In this document: piece after piece, positions 1 to 55,568 of the stretch
How positions within the stretch are numbered: the first letter of the stretch is position 1
How the letters are laid out: each line of letters begins with the position of its first letter
Assembly (NCBI GenBank): GCA_902806095.1
Contig: CADCVF010000036.1
Location: 41,969-105,968, forward strand
Length of the DNA: 64,000 bases
From: an uncultured Rubrobacteraceae bacterium
GTDB taxonomy: Bacteria > Actinomycetota > Rubrobacteria > Rubrobacterales > Rubrobacteraceae
Reading direction: 5' to 3'
Notes under the pieces: model-generated
The model's database searches: none
Told to the model about the DNA's origin: nothing
Seen by the model: the letters and a program-made list of their open reading frames with translations, nothing else
Program-made: the position numbers and the translations under genes

Positions 1-90
1 GATAAAGAAGAAAAGTGCCACGCCGAGGAGCAGGAGTATCGCCCCTATTACGGAGGCGATGAACAGCGTCAGGCGCCACCTGATGGGCAT
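1..90 (-). CDS. Sensor histidine kinase, N-terminal fragment (continues beyond window)
   Basis: Reverse strand from ATG at 90 reads MPIRWRLTLFIASVIGAILLLLGVALFFFI, a typical kinase N-terminal TM helix, 4 nt downstream of the response regulator stop. Confidence 0.75.
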   Translation of the reverse strand, partial: MPIRWRLTLFIASVIGAILLLLGVALFFFI

Positions 91-94
91 GTGC

Positions 95-772
95 TCACGC
101 CCCCTTCAAGGCGTAGCCAGCCCCACGCACGGTACGGATCAGCTGCTCCTCACCAGGGGAGTCCACCTTTCTTCTGAGGTAGCCAACGTAGACGTCGACC
201 AGGTTGGTCGTAAGGCCGAAGTCCTCTCCCCAGACGCGCGAGAGCAGGAGATCTCGGGAGAGAACCCGGCGATCATTCTGGGCCATGAACTCGAGCAGCT
301 CGTACTCGCGGGCCGTTAGCTCGATCTCCCGGTTGGCCCGCCTCACCTCGCGGGTGGAGGTGTTGATCTCCAGGTCGGCCACACGTAGTATCTCGTCTCC
401 CTCGACCCTCCTCAGTAGCGCACGGATGCGGGCAAGGAGTTCCTCTATGTCGAACGGCTTGGTCAGGTAATCGTCAGCGCCACGATCGAGGCTGTGCACC
501 TTGTCGAGCGTGGTGTCGCGGGCCGTCAGCATGATCACAGGCACCCTATTGCCCCCCTCACGCAACCGCTTGAGAACCCCAACCCCGCATAACCCCGGCA
601 GCATGATATCCAGGACGATCAACGCAGGCCCGAATTTTCGCGCCTCCTCCAGGGCGGCGGCACCATCGTAGGCGCACCGTACCAGGAAGCCCAGATGTTC
701 GAGCTCGGGTTGGACGAAGCTGGCGATCGAAAGGTCGTCCTCCACCAATAGTATCCTGGTGCCTGGTATCAT
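95..772 (-). CDS. OmpR/PhoB-family response regulator
   Basis: Receiver domain (RILLVEDD, LIVLDIMLPG, MLTARD, DDYLTKPF) plus winged-helix DNA-binding domain (LTAREYELLEFMAQN...RTVRGAGYAL). Confidence 0.96.
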   Translation of the reverse strand: MIPGTRILLVEDDLSIASFVQPELEHLGFLVRCAYDGAAALEEARKFGPALIVLDIMLPGLCGVGVLKRLREGGNRVPVIMLTARDTTLDKVHSLDRGADDYLTKPFDIEELLARIRALLRRVEGDEILRVADLEINTSTREVRRANREIELTAREYELLEFMAQNDRRVLSRDLLLSRVWGEDFGLTTNLVDVYVGYLRRKVDSPGEEQLIRTVRGAGYALKGA

Positions 773-1106
773 TCACTCCTCTTTGGGCTCTGGATAGGTA
801 TTGTACTCCCGTCCATTAGTGTGTGGGCCTCCGGCGCTTCCCCTCGCCGAGCGCAACGGACTCCGAGAATCCTCCAGCGCACGCAAAGCTGCGGGTCTGC
901 GCACCTTACGCCACAGTGCCTCTCCTTTTATCTGCCAAATCTGTTCTCGTCCGTCGGCGGCTATCGGCGGTTGCACGAGGGTCCACCCTAGACACTCTCT
1001 CTGAGAGGGAGATGAGAACCTGCGAGGCAGCCCCGACGCCGAGCGGTACCGCAGGAGGTTCGTACCGCGAGGAGGTTCTTGCGATCATAATTAGGGTTTG
1101 GAAGTC

Positions 1107-1114
1107 TGTATAAT
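1107..1114 (+). promoter_or_regulatory. Putative -10 element upstream of sucC
   Basis: tgTATAAT about 40 nt upstream of the sucC TTG start; no convincing -35. Confidence 0.4.
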
Positions 1115-1153
1115 TTCGGATCGTTATGGCCGTCTTCGCGGGAGTCTTCTAAC

Positions 1154-2305
1154 TTGGATCTCTACGAGTATCAAGGGAAAGAGCTGTTGAGGCATTACGA
1201 CCTGGAGACGCTGCCAGGCATCGTCGCGGGTACTCCGGAGGAGGCGGGAAGGGCCGCCGAGACACTCGGGGGAACGGTGGCGATCAAAGCCCAGGTCCTG
1301 ACCGGAGGACGTGGCAAGGCCGGCGGAATCAAGGTCGTGGACAGCCCACGGGAGGCCGAAGAGGCGGCGGGGCAGATCCTCGGTATGGATATCCGCGGGC
1401 ATACTGTGGGGCGCGTCTACGTCGAGCACGGAGAGAAGATAGACAGGGAGTTCTACCTCTCCATCACGGTGGACAGGACGGCGAAGCGGCCCCTGATCCT
1501 GTTCTCCACAGAGGGCGGGGTCGAGATCGAGGAGGTCGCGGAGACGAACCCAGAGGCCATCGTCAGGCTGCACGTAGACCCCCTGCTCGGCCTCCTTCCC
1601 TACCAGGTGCGTGAGATCACGTTCTCCGCGGGACTGGAAGGAGACGTCGCAAAGGGCGTAGGAACGGTGCTCTCGCACCTGTACAAAGCTTTCGAGGGAC
1701 TCGACGCGAGCCTGGTCGAACTCAACCCTCTCGTCGTTACCGGGGAAGGGCGCGTCCTGACGTTGGACGCTAAGGTCACGGTGGACGACTCCAGCCTGTA
1801 CAGGCACGAAGACATAGCAGGGATGCACGACGTCGAGGCTGCTGACCCGCAAGAGGAGCGGGCGCAGGAGGTCGGGCTGCAGTATGTCAAGCTGGACGGC
1901 GACGTCGGCATCCTCGGCAACGGGGCTGGGCTCGTGATGAGCACACTCGACGTCGTCGCCCAGGCCGGTGGCGAGCCAGCCAACTTCTGCGACGTAGGCG
2001 GCGGGGCCGACGCCGAGCAGATCTCGACCGCCCTCGATATCGTCACCTCCAACGAGCAGGTAAAAAGCGTCCTCTTCAACATCTTCGGCGGCATAACGCG
2101 CGGCGACGAGGTGGCGCGAGGGCTGCTCTCGGCCATAGAGCGGACAGGGATCACACTCCCCATAGTCGTCAGGCTCGACGGTACGAACGCCGAGGAGGGA
2201 CGCAGGATCCTCGCCGAGAACACGCCGGAGAACGTTGTCACCGAGGAGACGATGCTGGATGCGGCCAGCAGGGCTGTAGAGCTCGCTAGAGACGGGGGAA
2301 GGTAG
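1154..2305 (+). CDS. sucC: Succinate-CoA ligase (ADP-forming) beta subunit
   Basis: [20 protein letters not shown]-grasp, [29 protein letters not shown] start. Confidence 0.97.
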
Positions 2306-2309
2306 ATCT

Positions 2310-3185
2310 ATGGCCATACTCGTAGACAATGGGACGCGGCTCCTCGTTCAGGGCATAACGGGCAGGGAGGGCGCGTTCCACACAGGTAGGATGCTTCAGA
2401 GCGGCACTAAGGTGGTCGCGGGTGTAACGCCGGGCAAGGGCGGGCAGGACTACGAAGGCGTCCCTATCTTCGACACCGTCGAGGATGCCGTCCGAGAGAC
2501 TGGCGCGAACGCGAGCGTGATCTTCGTCCCCCCGCCTTTCGCCGCCGACGCCATATTCGAGTCCCTGGACGCCGGACTCTCGACCATCTGCTGCATCACA
2601 GAAGGCATCCCCGTGCACGACATGATGCGAGTCACGAACTACCTGGGGACCAAGGACGCGACACTTATTGGGCCAAACTGCCCGGGCGTACTCTCGCCGG
2701 AGAAGGCGAACGTCTCGATAATGCCCAAGGACATCTTTATGCCAGGCAACGTAGGTGTCGTAAGCCGCAGCGGCACGCTGACGTACCAGATCGTCAACGA
2801 GCTCACGCAGAGGGAGATCGGGCAGAGCACCGCCGTCGGGATCGGCGGCGACCCGATAATAGGGACTGATTTCATCGAGATCCTGAGCAAGTTCGAGGCC
2901 GACCCCGAGACAGAGTGCGCCGTGATGATCGGGGAGATCGGGGGCAACGCGGAACAGCTCGCGGCCGAGTACGTCAAGAGCGAGATGAACATCCCCGTCG
3001 TGGCCTACATAGCCGGCTTCACGGCCCCAGAGGGCAAGACGATGGGACATGCCGGCGCGATCGTCTCTGGCGGCGAGAGCACGGCGGAGGCCAAGAGCGA
3101 GGCGCTCAGGGAGGCAGGCATCAGGGCCGCGACGAACCCGTCCGAGGTCGCCGAGCTCGTCTCCGAAGCGCTCGGTCGGGGCTGA
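2310..3185 (+). CDS. sucD: Succinate-CoA ligase alpha subunit
   Basis: [61 protein letters not shown]. Confidence 0.98.
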
Positions 3186-3211
3186 AGCCCAGGGAGTATA
3201 CTTCCTGGGCT
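3186..3211 (+). terminator. Hairpin directly after sucD stop
   Basis: agcccagggagtatacttcctgggct, near-perfect inverted repeat starting one nt after the stop. Confidence 0.6.
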
Positions 3212-3274
3212 CACCATGAACGGGTATCGTGCAACCCAGGCAAGCCCGACCTCCCCGACCAGGGCACGGCCATA

Positions 3275-3496
3275 ATGGCCGAATCCACCGTTTCCAAGCA
3301 GCCTGCCGGAAGGCGGTTCATGCCCTGGCTCCTCGAGGAGCGCAACGAAGAGGTAAAGGGGCCAGGGGCCAGGGAGGGAGAAGAACAGCACGCGTGGTGG
3401 CAGGTTGTGTGCCTGACCGGCGTCGATTATTACTCCACCCTCGTCTACAAACCAGGGATAGCACAGCGCCCGGCGATCCTCGTGGACGGACGATGA
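3275..3496 (+). pseudogene. Truncated APC-family amino acid permease, N-terminal fragment
   Basis: MAESTVSKQPAGRRFMPWLLEERNEEVKGPGAREGEEQHAWWQVVCLTGVDYYSTLVYKPGIAQRPAILVDGR*; WWQVxCLTGVDYxSTLxYxPGIA resembles the first TM segment of APC permeases, then stops; ATGA overlap with next gene. Confidence 0.6.
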
Positions 3497-4164
3497 GCCG
3501 GCAGTTCGTCGTCGTCGGCCTGGGACGACTCGGTATCTCCATGGTCGGCACCCTCGACTCGTTGGGACACGAAGTGCTCGCCATAGACAAGAGGGAGGAC
3601 GTGATACAGCGTCTCGCTGATGACCTGCCTAACGTCCACCTCGTGACCACAGACGCTACAGATGAGGATGCCATGCGGGGCCTGAATATCAGAGACTTCG
3701 ACGCCGCCGCCGTGATGATTGGCGAGAACCACGTCGAGGCCGGTATCCTCACGACGGCAACCTTGAAGGAGGTCGGAATACCCAGGATCGTGGCGCGGGC
3801 CACGGGCGGCATCCACGCGAGGGTGCTCGAGAGGGTGGGCGCCGACAGGGTGATACAGCCAGAGCGGGAGATAGGAGAGCAGCTCGCGAGGTCGATGGCC
3901 TCGCCGGTCCTGCTCGACTACGTCGACCTCGGAGAAGACGAGGCCCTGATCGAAGCCGAGGTCCCGAAAGAGTGGCTCGACAAGTCCCTCTCCGAACTCG
4001 ACCTCTCGCAGAAGATGGGCCTCACGGTCTTGGCCCTCAAGCCGAAGGGCGGTCCAGGGTCCCTGCCCCATGGCGACACCGTGTTGCAAGAGGGGGACGT
4101 GCTCGTGGTCGGAGGCTCCAAGAAGGCCATGGACAGGTCCCCACTCGTTCAGCCCGACGGTTAG
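3493..4164 (+). CDS. TrkA/KtrA-type K+ channel regulatory (RCK) protein
   Basis: MSRQFVVVGLGRLGISMVGTLDSLGHEVLAIDK Rossmann fold plus TrkA-C; ATG overlaps preceding TGA. Confidence 0.93.
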   Translation: MSRQFVVVGLGRLGISMVGTLDSLGHEVLAIDKREDVIQRLADDLPNVHLVTTDATDEDAMRGLNIRDFDAAAVMIGENHVEAGILTTATLKEVGIPRIVARATGGIHARVLERVGADRVIQPEREIGEQLARSMASPVLLDYVDLGEDEALIEAEVPKEWLDKSLSELDLSQKMGLTVLALKPKGGPGSLPHGDTVLQEGDVLVVGGSKKAMDRSPLVQPDG

Positions 4165-4180
4165 CAGGAGGTTTTCCGCT

Positions 4181-5515
4181 TTGCACACGGTGATCATTGG
4201 AGCAGGGGAGGTCGGGCTCAATACGGCCCGCATGCTCTCACAAGAAGGCCACAACGTCGTGCTCGTCGAAAAGGACGAGAAGCTCGTGGAACAGGCTGCC
4301 GAGGAGCTCGATGCGCTGGTGATCGCCGGTAACGGCGCCAATCCCAAGCTGCTCGACGAAGCCGGCATCAGGAGTTCCGACCTGCTCATAGCGGCGAGTA
4401 ATTCCGACGAGGTGAACATCATCGCCTGTCTGGCGGCGAAGGCCCAGGGAGTCTCCAGCACTGTGGCGCGTATACACAACCCCGACTACCTCGAAGCAGG
4501 AGAGCCGTTCGCCAGGGAAATGCTCGGTATCGACTTCATAATCCACACGGAGCAGATGGCGGCGCAAGAGATCAAGGAAGCGCTGCTGGTGCCCGGTGCG
4601 ATCAACGTGGACAGCTTCGCCGAGGACACCATCGAGGTGGCCGAGGTGATCCTGAACGAGGGTTCTGAGGCCGTGGGCCGCGCTCTGCGCGACGTGAGTT
4701 TGCCCGACGACAGCCTCATCGTCGGCGTCGTAAGGGGCGGAGAGGCGCTCGTGCCGAAGGGTGCGACGGTGCTGGAGAAGAGGGACCATGTACTGCTGAT
4801 CAGCGGCCGCAGGCAGGTCTCCGAGGCTGTTGGCGCCCTGGCCACGGACACGGCGCCGGTAAGGGAGGTGACGATCTACGGCGGAGGGCGCATCGGTCTG
4901 CGGCTGGCCCTCTCGCTGGAGAAGGTAGGCATGTCGGTGAGGGTCATAGAAAGGGACGAGGGCAGGGCACGCTATGTGGCTTCCCAGCTCAGGAAGGGGT
5001 TCGTGCTCCACGACGAGGGGATCTCCCGCGACTTCTTGCTCCAGGAAGGCGTTGACCGTACAGACGCCTTCGTAGCCGTCACGGGAGACGACAGGGCCAA
5101 CCTTCTCGCCGCCATGTACGCCCGCCAGTTGGGGGCCCGCATAACCATCGCTGGCGTAAGCCGCGGTGAGTTCGCGCCGCTCGCCGACGCCCTCGGGGTC
5201 GACCTGACGATCTCACCGCGGATGCTCGCGGCCGAGGCCATACTCCGCTTTGTGCGCAAGGGTGAGGTCATAGATGTAGCGCTTCTGGCAAGCGGGGCCG
5301 AGATGATCGAGCTCAGGGTCCCCGAGCGGTGCAGGGTCGCAGGCCGCCCACTCTCTGAGGTAGGGTTCCCCGAAGGCGCTATAGTGGGAGCCTTACTGCG
5401 CAACGGAACCGTCATCATCCCGACGGGCAAAGAGATTCTCAGGCCCGGCGATGACGCAGTCGTGTTCACCATCGAGGATGCCGTAGAAGAGGTCGAGAAC
5501 CTTTTCGCCACCTAG
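4181..5515 (+). CDS. trkA: TrkA-type K+ uptake protein with two RCK units
   Basis: TTG start after caggaggt; MHTVIIGAGEVGLNTARMLSQEGHNVVLVEKD and second VTIYGGGRIGLRLALSLEKVGMSVRVIERD. Confidence 0.95.
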   Translation: MHTVIIGAGEVGLNTARMLSQEGHNVVLVEKDEKLVEQAAEELDALVIAGNGANPKLLDEAGIRSSDLLIAASNSDEVNIIACLAAKAQGVSSTVARIHNPDYLEAGEPFAREMLGIDFIIHTEQMAAQEIKEALLVPGAINVDSFAEDTIEVAEVILNEGSEAVGRALRDVSLPDDSLIVGVVRGGEALVPKGATVLEKRDHVLLISGRRQVSEAVGALATDTAPVREVTIYGGGRIGLRLALSLEKVGMSVRVIERDEGRARYVASQLRKGFVLHDEGISRDFLLQEGVDRTDAFVAVTGDDRANLLAAMYARQLGARITIAGVSRGEFAPLADALGVDLTISPRMLAAEAILRFVRKGEVIDVALLASGAEMIELRVPERCRVAGRPLSEVGFPEGAIVGALLRNGTVIIPTGKEILRPGDDAVVFTIEDAVEEVENLFAT

Positions 5516-5518
5516 CCT

Positions 5519-6982
5519 TTGAACCCGAGGGTTATCATCAGGGTGAACGCCAGTGTGATCCTCGCGCTAGGGCTGGCGCTCCTGATCCCCCTCGCGCTCT
5601 CATTGCTCTACAGCGACGGATCGTGGGCGAGCTTCCTGCTTCCTGCCACGCTGATGGTCGCGGCCGGTATCGTTGGCATCCGGGCCGCCAGGTCTCGGGG
5701 CCGCGCGCCTGAGTACGTGTCGAACAGGGACGTCTACCTCTCCGTGACGCTTGCCTGGACGCTCGCGGCCCTGCTCGGCGGTACGCCGTTTCTGGTCGAG
5801 GGCACCTTCCATAGCCTGCTCGATTCGAGCTTCGAGGCCATGAGTGGGTTCACCACCACGGGGGCGACCCTACTCTCCGACATCGAGGCCGAGACCCCAT
5901 CCATACTATTCTGGCGGAGCATGACCCACTGGCTCGGGGGAATAGGGATCGTGGTCCTCTTCGTCGCGGTCGCGCCGCTGCTAGGGGTCGGTGCGGCGCG
6001 TCTAATCGGCGCTGAGATGTCGGGCCTCACAGGGCCCCGCCTGACGCCTCGGATCGCCGACACGGCCAAGGCCCTCATAATCATCTACCTCGCGATCTCC
6101 ATCGCCGAGATCGTCGCTCTGCTACTGGCGAAGATGCCGCTCTACGACGCCGTCATCCACACGTTCGGCACCGTCGCGACGGGGGGCTTCAGCAACAAGA
6201 CTGCGTCGGTAGGCTTCTACGAGTCGCTGGCCATAGAGGCGATCATAGGCTTTTTCATGGTAGCCTCGGGCGTATCTTTCTCGCTCTACTACCTCCTCTA
6301 CACCAGGCGCAGGTTCAATGTTTTTCTAGACAGAGAGTTGCTGGCTTACCTCGGGATCGTCGCTGCGGCCTCGATCTTCGTGTGGGGGACCCTCGTCCTC
6401 GGAGACGACTACGGGGCCTCCTGGGGCAGGGCTTTCAGGGACTCGGCGTTCGCGGTGTCCAGCATCATCACCACGACCGGATTCGTAACGGCCGACTTCG
6501 ACCGGTGGGACCCTGCCGCCAAGATCACCCTGATCCTGCTCATGTTCATCGGGGGATGCGCCGGTTCGACCGCGGGCGGGATCAAGGTCATCCGCGTCCT
6601 CATCATCTTCCGCACGATCCTCCAGGACGTCTTCAGGATGATCCACCCTCGCGCGGTCACACCACTCCAGATTGGCGGGCGTGTAGTGCCGGAGACCGTG
6701 CGGATTGCAGTCCTCGGCCTCTTCGCTGCCTGGATGGGGGTATTCGGCATAGCGACGTTCATCGTGGCCCTACAAGGGGAGCTGACGCCGCTCTCTGCCG
6801 CCACCGCCGTAGCGGCGACCCTGAATGACGTAGGCCCGGGACTGGGGCAGGTCGGTGCCGCGGAGAGCTACGAGATCGTCGACCCTCTGGGCCGCTTTGT
6901 ACTCACCGCCTGTATGCTCCTCGGGAGGTTGGAGATCTTCACCGTCTTGGCACTCCTATCCCCCGCATTCTGGAAACGCTGA
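5519..6982 (+). CDS. trkH: TrkH-family K+ transporter
   Basis: Multi-TM; SGFTTTGATLL, WLGGIGIVVL, TVATGGFSNKTAS, TTTGFVTADFDRWDPAAK, GGCAGSTAGGIKVIR selectivity motifs. Confidence 0.96.
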   Translation: MNPRVIIRVNASVILALGLALLIPLALSLLYSDGSWASFLLPATLMVAAGIVGIRAARSRGRAPEYVSNRDVYLSVTLAWTLAALLGGTPFLVEGTFHSLLDSSFEAMSGFTTTGATLLSDIEAETPSILFWRSMTHWLGGIGIVVLFVAVAPLLGVGAARLIGAEMSGLTGPRLTPRIADTAKALIIIYLAISIAEIVALLLAKMPLYDAVIHTFGTVATGGFSNKTASVGFYESLAIEAIIGFFMVASGVSFSLYYLLYTRRRFNVFLDRELLAYLGIVAAASIFVWGTLVLGDDYGASWGRAFRDSAFAVSSIITTTGFVTADFDRWDPAAKITLILLMFIGGCAGSTAGGIKVIRVLIIFRTILQDVFRMIHPRAVTPLQIGGRVVPETVRIAVLGLFAAWMGVFGIATFIVALQGELTPLSAATAVAATLNDVGPGLGQVGAAESYEIVDPLGRFVLTACMLLGRLEIFTVLALLSPAFWKR

Positions 6983-7013
6983 GTAGGGGCGGGTTTCAAA
7001 CCCGCCCCTACTC
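6981..7013. terminator. Bidirectional terminator-like palindrome between trkH and arginase
   Basis: gagtaggggcgggttt-c-aaacccgcccctactc, 16-bp perfect arms between convergent genes. Confidence 0.85.
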
Positions 7014-7022
7014 ATTCAGCGC

Positions 7023-7952
7023 TCATCGTGGTAGGTCGATTATTCTGCGTCCCATGAGGCTCTCGACGAGCTCGACTGCGAGTGTGGCTGTGCCGTTCTT
7101 GATGTCGAGGATGGGGTTGACTTCGACGACGTCGAGTGAAGAGATTATTCCTGCTTCGTTGACCAGTTCCATCAGGAGGTGCGCCTCCCTGTAGGTGAGG
7201 CCTCCGCGGACGGGGGTGCCGACGCCAGGGGCGATCTCGGGGTCGACGACGTCGAGATCGAATGAGAGGTGTACTCTGTCGACTTGTGAGAGGCCTTTGA
7301 TGGCGCTTCGGACGACGCGTGCCGCGCCGTAGGCGTCGATGTCCTTCATCGTGTAGACCCTTACGCCGGCCTCGCGCAGCAGGCGCTTCTCCTCCACATC
7401 CACGGAGCGCAGGCCGATGATCACGACGTCCTCGGTACTGACGCTCGCCTCAGGAGTGCCGATCCCGACGAGGTCGGGGTGGCCGAGGCCCATTATGGCC
7501 GCCAGCGGCATTCCGTGGATGTTGCCGGAAGGCGAGGTCTCTGGGGTGTTGAAGTCAGCGTGGGCGTCGACCCAGATCACGCCCGTCCGGTCCCCCGATG
7601 TGGAGCGCGCGACCCCTGAGACGGTCCCGATGGCGATGGCGTGATCCCCGCCGAGGAAGATCGGGAACATCCCCTCGGAGACTATGGTTGCTGCCCTATC
7701 GGAGACCTCTTCGCAGACTCTCTTTACGGCGGCGAGGTGCTTGACCTCCGTCTCGGCCACGACGGTCTCGGGGATGGGCACTCCTGCATTGCCGAGGTCG
7801 GTAACCCTGTGGCCGAGATCTTCCAGGCATGCTTCGATGCGGGCGTAACGGATGGCGCTCGGTCCCATATCCACGCCTCGCCGGTCCTGGCCTAGGTCCA
7901 TAGGCACGCCGAAGATGCCGACAGGCTGGCGCCCGTTGTCAGGCAAAGGCAC
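7023..7952 (-). CDS. rocF: Arginase
   Basis: GVPMDLGQDRRGVDMGPSAIRYA, GGDHAIAIG, WVDAHADFNTPETSPSGNIHGMP, SFDLDVVDPEIAPGVGTPV. Confidence 0.96.
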   Translation of the reverse strand: MPLPDNGRQPVGIFGVPMDLGQDRRGVDMGPSAIRYARIEACLEDLGHRVTDLGNAGVPIPETVVAETEVKHLAAVKRVCEEVSDRAATIVSEGMFPIFLGGDHAIAIGTVSGVARSTSGDRTGVIWVDAHADFNTPETSPSGNIHGMPLAAIMGLGHPDLVGIGTPEASVSTEDVVIIGLRSVDVEEKRLLREAGVRVYTMKDIDAYGAARVVRSAIKGLSQVDRVHLSFDLDVVDPEIAPGVGTPVRGGLTYREAHLLMELVNEAGIISSLDVVEVNPILDIKNGTATLAVELVESLMGRRIIDLPR

Positions 7953-15783: not shown

Positions 15784-15862
15784 GCAAGTCAGCACGCTCC
15801 GGATTCGCCTCCGCTTGTCAGCACTTCAGCTTGTTGTTTGTTTTGGGCTGAAATGCTGATGG
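15784..15862 (-). repeat. GCTGA-frame hairpin repeat, unit 2 plus linker copies
   Basis: Minus: CAAGCTGAAGTGCTGACAAGC-GGAGGCGAATCCGGA-GCGTGCTGACTTGC; further gctgaaatgctgat at 15847-15860. Confidence 0.85.
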
Positions 15863-17890: not shown

Positions 17891-19432
17891 ATGGGCGCTA
17901 GGTTCACGCGACGCCGGTTTCTCGCAGCGGCGGGCGCCGGCGTCACGTACTTCGCGCTGTCAAACACGGTTGGCTGCGAACCGCCCGAGCGATCCTCGAA
18001 GGTCGCCTCCTCGGGCACACCAAAGATCAGGCCCTTGCCGGGCGTTGCATTCCCGCCTGCGGGAGGCGTGTGGGCCTTCCGCTCGCGCCCCGACCTCAGC
18101 CCACCCGCCGTCGAGGTAGCCACAGAGGCGCACGACGACACCGCCGCCGGCTACATTTTCCTCGCCCCGGAGAAGGGCGGCGCCGGGAAGGGCGGCTCGA
18201 TGATCATCGACGATCGCGGTGAGGTGGTGTGGTTCCATCCTTTGCAGGGCCCGTATGGACGCACGATGAACTTCGAGACACAGACCTACCAGAGCAGAGA
18301 TGTACTTACCTGGGGGCAAACACCAGGTGAGTATGTGATCTTCGACGGCTCCTACCGTGAGATAGCCCGGTTCGGGGCCGCCAACGGCTACAACGGGGAC
18401 CACCACGAGTTCCTCATCAGCCCGCAGGACACCGCACTGATCACGATCTACAAGGCGGTGCCTCAGGACCTCTCCCCTGTCGGCGGCCCCAAGAACAGCG
18501 TAGCGTGGCAAGGGGTCGTCCAGGAGTTGGACATCGAGACCGGAGAGGTGCTCTTCGAATGGCGCAGCCTCGACCATGTTGGCCTGGAGGAGACCTACGT
18601 CACACCGTCAGAGGATCACTACCCTGGTATCGACTACTTCCACATCAACTCCATAGACGTAGATCACGACAACAACCTGCTGGTCTCTGCCCGCGAAACC
18701 TCCACCGTCTATAAGGTAGACCGCAACAGCGGCGAGGTCATGTGGCGCCTCGGCGGCAAGAAGAGCGACTTCGAGATGGGCCCTGGCACCCGATTCGCCT
18801 TCCAGCACGACGCCCGCCGCCTCCCCGACGGCACCATCAGCATCTTCGATAACGGCAGCCTGGTCTTCGAAAATGGCACCCCCAAAGCGGTAGAAGAGTC
18901 CCGCGCAGTCGTATTGGAGCTCGACGAGGAGCAGATGAACGCCTCGCTGGCGCGCGAGTACACCCACCCAGACAAGCAGTACGCCGATGCGGCCGGCAAC
19001 ATGCAGGTGCTACCGAACGGTAACGTGTTCGTAGGGTGGGGCAGAGGACTGGCAATCTCGGAGTTCAGAAAGGATGGGGAGCTGCTCTTCGATTTCAGGG
19101 TGTCGCCCGAACACAGGTCCTACAGGGCCTTCCGCTTTCCGTGGAGCGGCCAACCGCCGGATCAGCCCGCTGTTGTGGCGGAGCGGACCTCCGATAACGA
19201 GCTCGAGGTCTACGCCAGCTGGAACGGGGCCACTGAGATCGCCGCCTGGGAGGTGCTCGCCGGCCAGGACCCTGGCCAACTAGAGTCTCTGGGATCTATC
19301 CCCCGGGACGGATTCGAGACAGCCATGGTGGTGCAAACCTCCGATCCTTACGTCGCCGTGCAGGCCAAACACCGTTCGGGACGAGTACTCGGCGTCTCCA
19401 CGCCCGTCGAAGCAAGTCAGCATGTCAGCTAG
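17891..19432 (+). CDS. Arylsulfotransferase (ASST) family protein with twin-arginine signal
   Basis: FTRRRFLAAAGAGVTYFALSNTVGC lipoprotein/TAT-like N-terminus; HEFLISPQDTALIT, HINSIDVDHDNNLLVSARETSTVYKVDRNSGEVMWRLGG, FAFQHDARRLPDGTISIFDNG. Confidence 0.88.
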   Translation: MGARFTRRRFLAAAGAGVTYFALSNTVGCEPPERSSKVASSGTPKIRPLPGVAFPPAGGVWAFRSRPDLSPPAVEVATEAHDDTAAGYIFLAPEKGGAGKGGSMIIDDRGEVVWFHPLQGPYGRTMNFETQTYQSRDVLTWGQTPGEYVIFDGSYREIARFGAANGYNGDHHEFLISPQDTALITIYKAVPQDLSPVGGPKNSVAWQGVVQELDIETGEVLFEWRSLDHVGLEETYVTPSEDHYPGIDYFHINSIDVDHDNNLLVSARETSTVYKVDRNSGEVMWRLGGKKSDFEMGPGTRFAFQHDARRLPDGTISIFDNGSLVFENGTPKAVEESRAVVLELDEEQMNASLAREYTHPDKQYADAAGNMQVLPNGNVFVGWGRGLAISEFRKDGELLFDFRVSPEHRSYRAFRFPWSGQPPDQPAVVAERTSDNELEVYASWNGATEIAAWEVLAGQDPGQLESLGSIPRDGFETAMVVQTSDPYVAVQAKHRSGRVLGVSTPVEASQHVS

Positions 19433-19475
19433 TCAGCCCGCGCCCGATCGGGCGCGGGCTGACTAGCTGACAGCT
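19409..19475. repeat. GCTGA-frame repeat locus containing a perfect 50-bp palindrome
   Basis: gcaagtcagca then tgtcagctagtcagcccgcgcccga/tcgggcgcgggctgactagctgaca (19423-19472, no loop) between convergent genes. Confidence 0.9.
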
Positions 19476-20143
19476 CACAGACTTCGAAGATCTCCGACCA
19501 GCACCTTCTCACCACTAGAGCCGGGGTTGCCATCATCGGGCTCGCGGGTCACTTCGATCTTCGGATACGACGTGGCGCCTACAGGAGCCGTGAGGTTGAC
19601 GGTGGTCTGACCTCCCGGCTGCGCGCGGAAGGTGCCGCAGCTGATCCGTCCGCCATCCTCCTTGGCGTACCACAGCTCATAGTATTCGTCCTTTCGGAGT
19701 TCGGGCAGGCCCCACACCACCAGTTCGATCTGAAGGTTCCCCCCTTCCACTTCCCCGCTGACCTCGCCGCCGCCCTCTGAGGCAGGAACTGTGGCGGTCA
19801 GCGGAATACCTTCCGAAGACCCTTGGGTGATCGCCCAGAGGAGACCGGCGCCAAGGACAGCGATCGCCAGCAGCGCGGCCGCCGAAACCCAGAGCCTCCA
19901 TCCGCCCCGGGAACGTGCCGGAATCTCACCTCTCGCCTGTGCCAGCACGCGGTCCTTGAGCTCCACTGGTGGCCCGCCGGCGGCTAGCCCTCGGAGGAGA
20001 TCGTGGGCCTGGCGGGCGCGGGCGAGCTCAACCCGACATCCGGAACACCCCTCCAGATGTCGCTCCAACTCGCGCTCCTCTTCGACGGAGAGCTCGCCGA
20101 GCAAGTAGGTGCCAAGGAGCTCCTCGAAGCGGTCTTCAGTCAC
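19475..20143 (-). CDS. Anti-sigma factor, RskA-like with zinc-finger N-terminus
   Basis: LGTYLLGELSVEEERELERHLEGCSGCRVELARAR; one TM; C-terminal RskA domain (VWGLPELRKDEYYELWYAKEDGGRISCGTF). Confidence 0.9.
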   Translation of the reverse strand: MTEDRFEELLGTYLLGELSVEEERELERHLEGCSGCRVELARARQAHDLLRGLAAGGPPVELKDRVLAQARGEIPARSRGGWRLWVSAAALLAIAVLGAGLLWAITQGSSEGIPLTATVPASEGGGEVSGEVEGGNLQIELVVWGLPELRKDEYYELWYAKEDGGRISCGTFRAQPGGQTTVNLTAPVGATSYPKIEVTREPDDGNPGSSGEKVLVGDLRSL

Positions 20144-41799: not shown

Positions 41800-41840
41800 T
41801 TCAGCACGCTGCCTTCGGCAGCTTGTCAGCCATCAGCAAG
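41796..41840 (-). repeat. GCTGA-frame hairpin repeat, unit 3
   Basis: Minus: CTTGCTGATGGCTGACAAGC-TGCCGAAGGCA-GCGTGCTGAATTGC; contains the uppP TTG start. Confidence 0.88.
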
Positions 41841-41927
41841 TCATCTCGGGGCGTCGCCACGAGCATCGAAGCCGACTGTCCCAGGCAGCTGTTCCTCGCA
41901 CGACCAGAGTGAGGCCATCAGAGGAAA

Positions 41928-42040
41928 GCTGACATGCTGACAAGCGAAGGCCTTAAAGGCCCGAAGCGTGCTGACAAGGCGCGAAGCGCCGTGCTGACTT
42001 GCGAAGGCGTTAGCCTGAGCGTGCTGACTTGCTGACACGC
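41928..42040 (+). repeat. Tandem array of three GCTGA-frame hairpin units
   Basis: GCTGACATGCTGACAAGC-GAAGGCCTTAAAGGCCCGAA-GCGTGCTGACAAG-GCGCGAAGCGCC-GTGCTGACTTGC-GAAGGCGTTAGCCTGA-GCGTGCTGACTTGCTGACACGC. Confidence 0.92.
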
Positions 42041-45483: not shown

Positions 45484-45533
45484 CGAGGATACGAAAGCGC
45501 CGGGCTCAAGGGTCCGGCGCTTTCGTATCCTCG
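45484..45533. repeat. Strong 20-bp-stem inverted repeat
   Basis: cgaggatacgaaagcgccgg-gctcaagggt-ccggcgctttcgtatcctcg between sigma factor and PAP2 gene. Confidence 0.9.
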
Positions 45534-55532: not shown

Positions 55533-55568
55533 GCGGGATGAGGAAGGGCAAACCCTTCCTCATCCCGC
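55533..55568. terminator. Perfect 16-bp-stem terminator-like hairpin
   Basis: gcgggatgaggaaggg-caaa-cccttcctcatcccgc directly after the coiled-coil gene stop. Confidence 0.85.

Follow-up and report, generated by a model that had tools for sequence, protein, structure and literature searches.

REP, BIME, and REPIN elements are high-copy intergenic inverted repeats that form mosaic clusters, and they lie mostly between tandem or convergent genes, near 3′ ends (PMC3733652, PMC3116915, PMC2817692). GTAG REPs carry a tag, often have a RAYT, and often provide the gene next to them with a TAG stop (PMC3733652). The BOX elements of Streptococcus pneumoniae are modular, intergenic, and RNA-folding, with fixed outer modules around a variable interior in which one internal module is repeated in tandem, and the paper describing them also names the family of Neisserial intergenic mosaic elements (PMC3049150). 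The TAACTGA repeats of Beggiatoaceae and Cyanobacteria are direct heptamer arrays, short tandem intergenic words that occur in many sets, are patchy across lineages, and mostly lie just upstream of start codons (PMC4679880). Here we describe a mosaic repeat built from KTCAGC words in the genome of an uncultured Rubrobacteraceae bacterium (assembly GCA_902806095.1), one copy of which, in a 64,000-nucleotide window (the whole stretch of DNA that we analysed), is a perfect palindrome. The palindrome is a compact, unusually symmetric copy of this dispersed repeat and no stand-alone oddity.

The initial annotation had reported a perfect loopless 50-bp palindrome between two convergent genes, with the stop codon of one of them inside its left arm, and each of these features was recovered (Table 1). 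The two 25-nt arms (19423-19447 and 19448-19472) are 100% complementary with a spacer of 0, and the perfect 50 bp lie in the middle of a longer, imperfect palindrome of 81 bp with 88% self-complementarity, to which an outer clamp, TCGAAG/CTTCGA, also belongs. Loopless palindromes with 25-bp arms are expected by chance about 3e-10 times per window at the G+C of 0.632 of the sampled sequence. Loopless palindromes reaching 28 bp or more number five in about 509 kb of the host genome; this one is the longest, and four of them have a repeat array no more than 70 bp away. A search for other copies, proposed in the same annotation, returned none in 40 family genomes with up to 3 mismatches allowed; the palindrome core has a single occurrence among those genomes, and plasmid sequences gave no match to the palindrome.

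Table 1. Features at and around the palindrome, in window coordinates.
Feature	Position	Strand	Basis
Arylsulfotransferase gene (PF14269), 513 aa	17891..19432	+	ORF and domain match
Imperfect 81-bp palindrome enclosing the perfect 50 bp	19407..19487	.	Minus-strand self match, fold
Whole repeat element, family ends AGC...GCT	19411..19475	.	Boundaries inferred
Left arm, three KTCAGC words at 8-bp period (GTCAGC-AT-GTCAGC-TA-GTCAGC)	19416..19437	+	
Perfect loopless 50-bp palindrome	19423..19472	.	Sequence read directly, palindrome search
TAG stop of the arylsulfotransferase	19430..19432	+	Spacer TA plus G of GTCAGC
20-nt self-complementary core CCGCGCCCGATCGGGCGCGG	19438..19457	.	
Right arm, two inverted words (GCTGAC-TA-GCTGAC)	19458..19471	-	
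Anti-sigma factor gene (PF10099 RskA_C, PF13490 zf-HC2)	19475..20143	-	ORF and domains

The palindrome had been said to share words with a dispersed repeat, and the likeness extends to exact spacing, with GTCAGC recurring every 8 bp in both arms. The copy reads AGC-AA-GTCAGC-AT-GTCAGC-TA-GTCAGC-[CC-GCGCCCGATCGGGCGC-GG]-GCTGAC-TA-GCTGAC-A-GCT, and it has everything by which we recognise the repeat: at least two words at exact 8-bp spacing (three on the left, two on the right), inward-facing arms around a core, the outer ends AGC...GCT, and an intergenic position against a gene 3′ end. No target-site duplication is seen at its boundaries. The core has the length of the commonest core of the family and a different sequence, close to a GCGCCC..GGGCGC hairpin module.

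In the 3.83-Mb draft of the host genome (85 contigs), whose nearest named matches are Rubrobacter MAGs, KTCAGCNNKTCAGC has 739 matches compared with 4 for a reversed control; among eight congeners, matches are numerous in three (441, 298, and 100) and number at most 10 in each of the other five, where all per-genome figures are pattern matches and not numbers of elements. Same-strand pairs of KTCAGC words occur 226 times at a distance of 8 and at most once at each other distance from 5 to 15 in 0.5 Mb of sampled stretches, which were picked around repeat matches, so that densities are biased upwards. For statistics of architecture the words were grouped into 89 elements, 50 of which have the strict order of plus-words, core, and minus-words seen in the window copy, the rest being one-armed or having extra words. 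The outer ends of the 89 listed elements are AGC...GCT, hairpin modules linked by AC...TT lie between KTCAGC words, and the commonest core type is 20 nt long and close to CAGGACTTGCACACGCGAAA, others being ~90-110 nt. Further copies in the window lie at 15788, 39342, 41800, 45453, and 55527. The window has no match to Rfam covariance models at the gathering score, and in the literature on Rubrobacter repeats we found nothing relevant and no description of a KTCAGC element, an abundant and apparently undescribed element in Rubrobacter.

The repeat is tied to gene ends. Arrays are intergenic in 86 of the 88 scored cases, though 87% of the sequence is coding; they are enriched in convergent gaps (24 arrays, with 16% of the intergenic length) and depleted in divergent ones (9 arrays, with 24%), and the commonest setting is between tandem genes (53/89). 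The median distance of the outermost octamer word is 10 nt to a gene 3′ end and 63 nt to a 5′ end, where single distances are approximate because gene models come from a simple in-house codon-usage caller. Stops adjoining elements show a modest excess of TAG (32/55 versus 225/492), since a T followed by AGC spells this codon, as does the spacer TA followed by GTCAGC.

The window copy illustrates both tendencies. The arylsulfotransferase gene (PF14269 match, E 4.6e-51) reads into the repeat and terminates inside it, its final six codons (ASQHVS) coming from the repeat boundary and arm, and the TGA of the convergent anti-sigma gene, part of an ECF sigma/anti-sigma pair adjoining the palindrome, touches the right end of the element. 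In contrast, none of the seven arylsulfotransferase homologues whose 3′ ends were inspected has a repeat-derived tail; in six the stop codon follows the last aligned residue by no more than two codons, and in the seventh it comes after five. The element has handed the arylsulfotransferase a replacement TAG stop.

In copy number, inverted intergenic layout, mosaic clustering, and location between tandem or convergent genes near 3′ ends, the KTCAGC repeat resembles the REP, BIME, and REPIN elements, and it shares TAG donation with the GTAG REPs. It differs in that its arms are inward-facing tandem octamers with an 8-bp period and cassette hairpins between them, and in having no apparent tag and no RAYT-like partner that we could find: by inspection, neither a GTAG nor a CGTC tag is common to the 89 elements, whose ends are AGC and GCT, and PF01797 (RAYT, Y1 transposase) is absent from the octamer-rich genomes G006, G002, and G020. 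A link between PF01797 and repeat count, considered from G000, G008, and G038, was rejected because it failed in those three genomes. Both PF01797 genes of G000 were also rejected as partners, as they adjoin a TnpB-type gene, lack octamer arrays, and look like ordinary TnpA genes. With BOX elements the KTCAGC repeat has in common its modularity, intergenic position, RNA folding, and fixed outer modules around a variable interior; the sequences are different, the repeated octamers form the arms, and the cassettes inside are of varying type. Neisserial intergenic mosaic elements have dRS3 arms and likewise place short inverted repeats around varied intergenic cassettes, a likeness of architecture; the arms here are octamer arrays of variable number. 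TAACTGA repeats are similar in being short tandem intergenic words with many sets and a patchy distribution, but the octamers of the KTCAGC repeat form inverted pairs at 3′ ends. We place the KTCAGC element among the interspersed mosaic repeats as a variant of its own, outside the REP, BOX, and TAACTGA families.

Comparison with the sister genome G008 at nine orthologous gene junctions, with flanks 82-97% identical, showed rapid turnover. At three junctions G008 has no octamers, and at the other six both genomes have them, with interiors merely 55-75% identical; at one additional site G008 has an element and the host none, and the G008 gene ends on a TAG within the element. Over the divergence of sister species, copies of the family have come and gone and their interiors have been rearranged. 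The counterpart of the window element at 41800-42036 has another type of core in the sister species. Of the features of MITEs, terminal inverted repeats are present as the inverted octamer arms, and filled and empty sites exist at which no target-site duplication can be defined because divergence blurs the junctions. No mobilising enzyme or partner transposase was found for the repeat, which we infer to be mobile.

The perfect symmetry of the window copy is exceptional in the family. Over their innermost 16 nt, the arms of two-armed elements have a mean of 11.4 matches, compared with 11.5 (sd 0.19) when arms are shuffled among elements, and we reject arm-to-arm complementarity as a sign of selected pairing. 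Because arms are not normally held complementary, the 25/25 match here, which extends to the spacers, calls for a local explanation. The most likely is local template switching on a quasi-palindrome, a process known to make such sequences perfect (PMC7202029). The arms would at first have formed an inverted repeat of the usual imperfect kind. Replication that switched template at the hairpin, or fold-back repair to the same effect, would then have copied one arm onto the other, leaving an exactly symmetric centre. The G008 contig ends about 130 bp short of the orthologous site.

Folded as RNA, the centre is predicted to form a stem of 23 bp whichever strand is read (−52 kcal/mol for the 50 nt), with z-scores of −9.8 and −11.9 when flanks are included, and a transcript from either strand would form the same stable hairpin. 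There is no T-run or U-tract on either side, on either strand, and we reject a classical intrinsic (Rho-independent) terminator, as the hairpin is present and the T-run absent on both strands. Without being one, the hairpin would protect mRNA ends and hinder read-through, and the most likely role is that of an mRNA 3′-end structure with some hindrance of read-through. We regard it as probable that the palindrome is a dispersed-repeat copy made symmetric by template switching or fold-back repair and acting as such a structure.

Bidirectional termination, a test proposed for the site from the outset, is possible as an activity of the palindrome. A dedicated bidirectional terminator of the two convergent genes, with its symmetry selected for function on both strands, would fit the convergent location, the 23-bp stem on both strands, and the enrichment of the family in convergent gaps. 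We consider it unlikely, since the T-run is lacking on either side, the family is most often found between tandem genes, sister species differ in their copies, and other copies do not keep up arm symmetry; the preference for tandem genes and the lack of conservation in place make a purpose-built terminator less likely than a 3′-end structure. Long near-loopless hairpins with arms of 16-20 bp, often around GGAAGGG..CCCTTCC, are found directly beside octamer arrays, with sequences that vary while complementarity is kept (L023:5214-5251, L025:11700-11739, L027:16586-16621, L029:6611-6650, and L040:10801-10834, and in the window at 45484-45533 and 55533-55568), and these array-adjacent hairpins may be the genome's real terminators.

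Very improbable is an assembly or library artefact, in which read error correction or graph simplification perfected a quasi-palindrome, or a fold-back chimera arose. The draft genome is fragmented and short reads handle perfect inverted repeats poorly, but on either side the contig passes into unique genes in the correct orientation, the arms consist of the family's ordinary octamers, and the genome holds other near-loopless palindromes of independent sequence. There is hardly any case for a locus-specific protein-binding dyad (an operator or recombination site), which the perfect two-fold symmetry and the neighbouring ECF sigma/anti-sigma pair might suggest, as the site is at gene 3′ ends, outside a promoter region, with no promoter-like site found near it, and its core occurs nowhere else in 40 genomes while its octamers are at hundreds of unrelated places.

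The initial annotation called the persistence of the palindrome notable on the grounds that long loopless palindromes are usually unstable in bacteria, which is a weak argument. The in-vitro limit of SbcCD hairpin cleavage corresponds to palindromes of 20-36 bp (cited in PMC4245961), which 50 bp exceeds just modestly; other loopless palindromes, of 34-40 bp, are present in the same genome, where SbcD gives a sub-threshold match only. Because the site belongs to a repeat family with fast turnover, long persistence is not demonstrated, and the remarkable points are the family itself and how exceptionally symmetric this copy is, rather than persistence.

Related words occur elsewhere. Among viral contigs with KTCAGC words, the inverted architecture is found at several gene junctions in one phage only: L094 (IMGVR_UViG_3300033514_000114), a tailed phage of 50% GC that has inward-facing GTCAGC/GCTGAC arrays at most structural-gene junctions across 47-7795, and of which L132 is the same phage reversed. 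In a phage collection it comes nearest to Virus Rctr41k (37% in the capsid/protease protein), and its host, judged by composition, is not Rubrobacter. Another viral contig, L196 (62% GC), has three outward-facing octamer clusters, opposite in orientation to those of the family, and G038, from another family of the phylum, has 15 matches of a fixed form, TTCAGCTCTTCAGC, possibly a separate octamer repeat.

We speculate, as a doubtful extension of these comparisons, that a dedicated recombination or transposition system uses the octamer arms as its working sites, depositing elements at gene ends and exchanging the cassettes that the arms enclose. If so, hundreds of intergenic regions would have been re-equipped between sister species by an octamer-arm system, of which the tailed phage with its similar gene-junction architecture would be a second, unrelated carrier. 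The palindrome alone is a curiosity, and a candidate natural product of template switching; the element family is the more interesting object. Its copies abut genes and sometimes supply their stops, and their interiors diverge while the flanking genes stay ~82-97% identical, so that the KTCAGC family offers a manageable natural setting in which to study how repeats spread between genes and whether mRNA 3′ ends are set by them.
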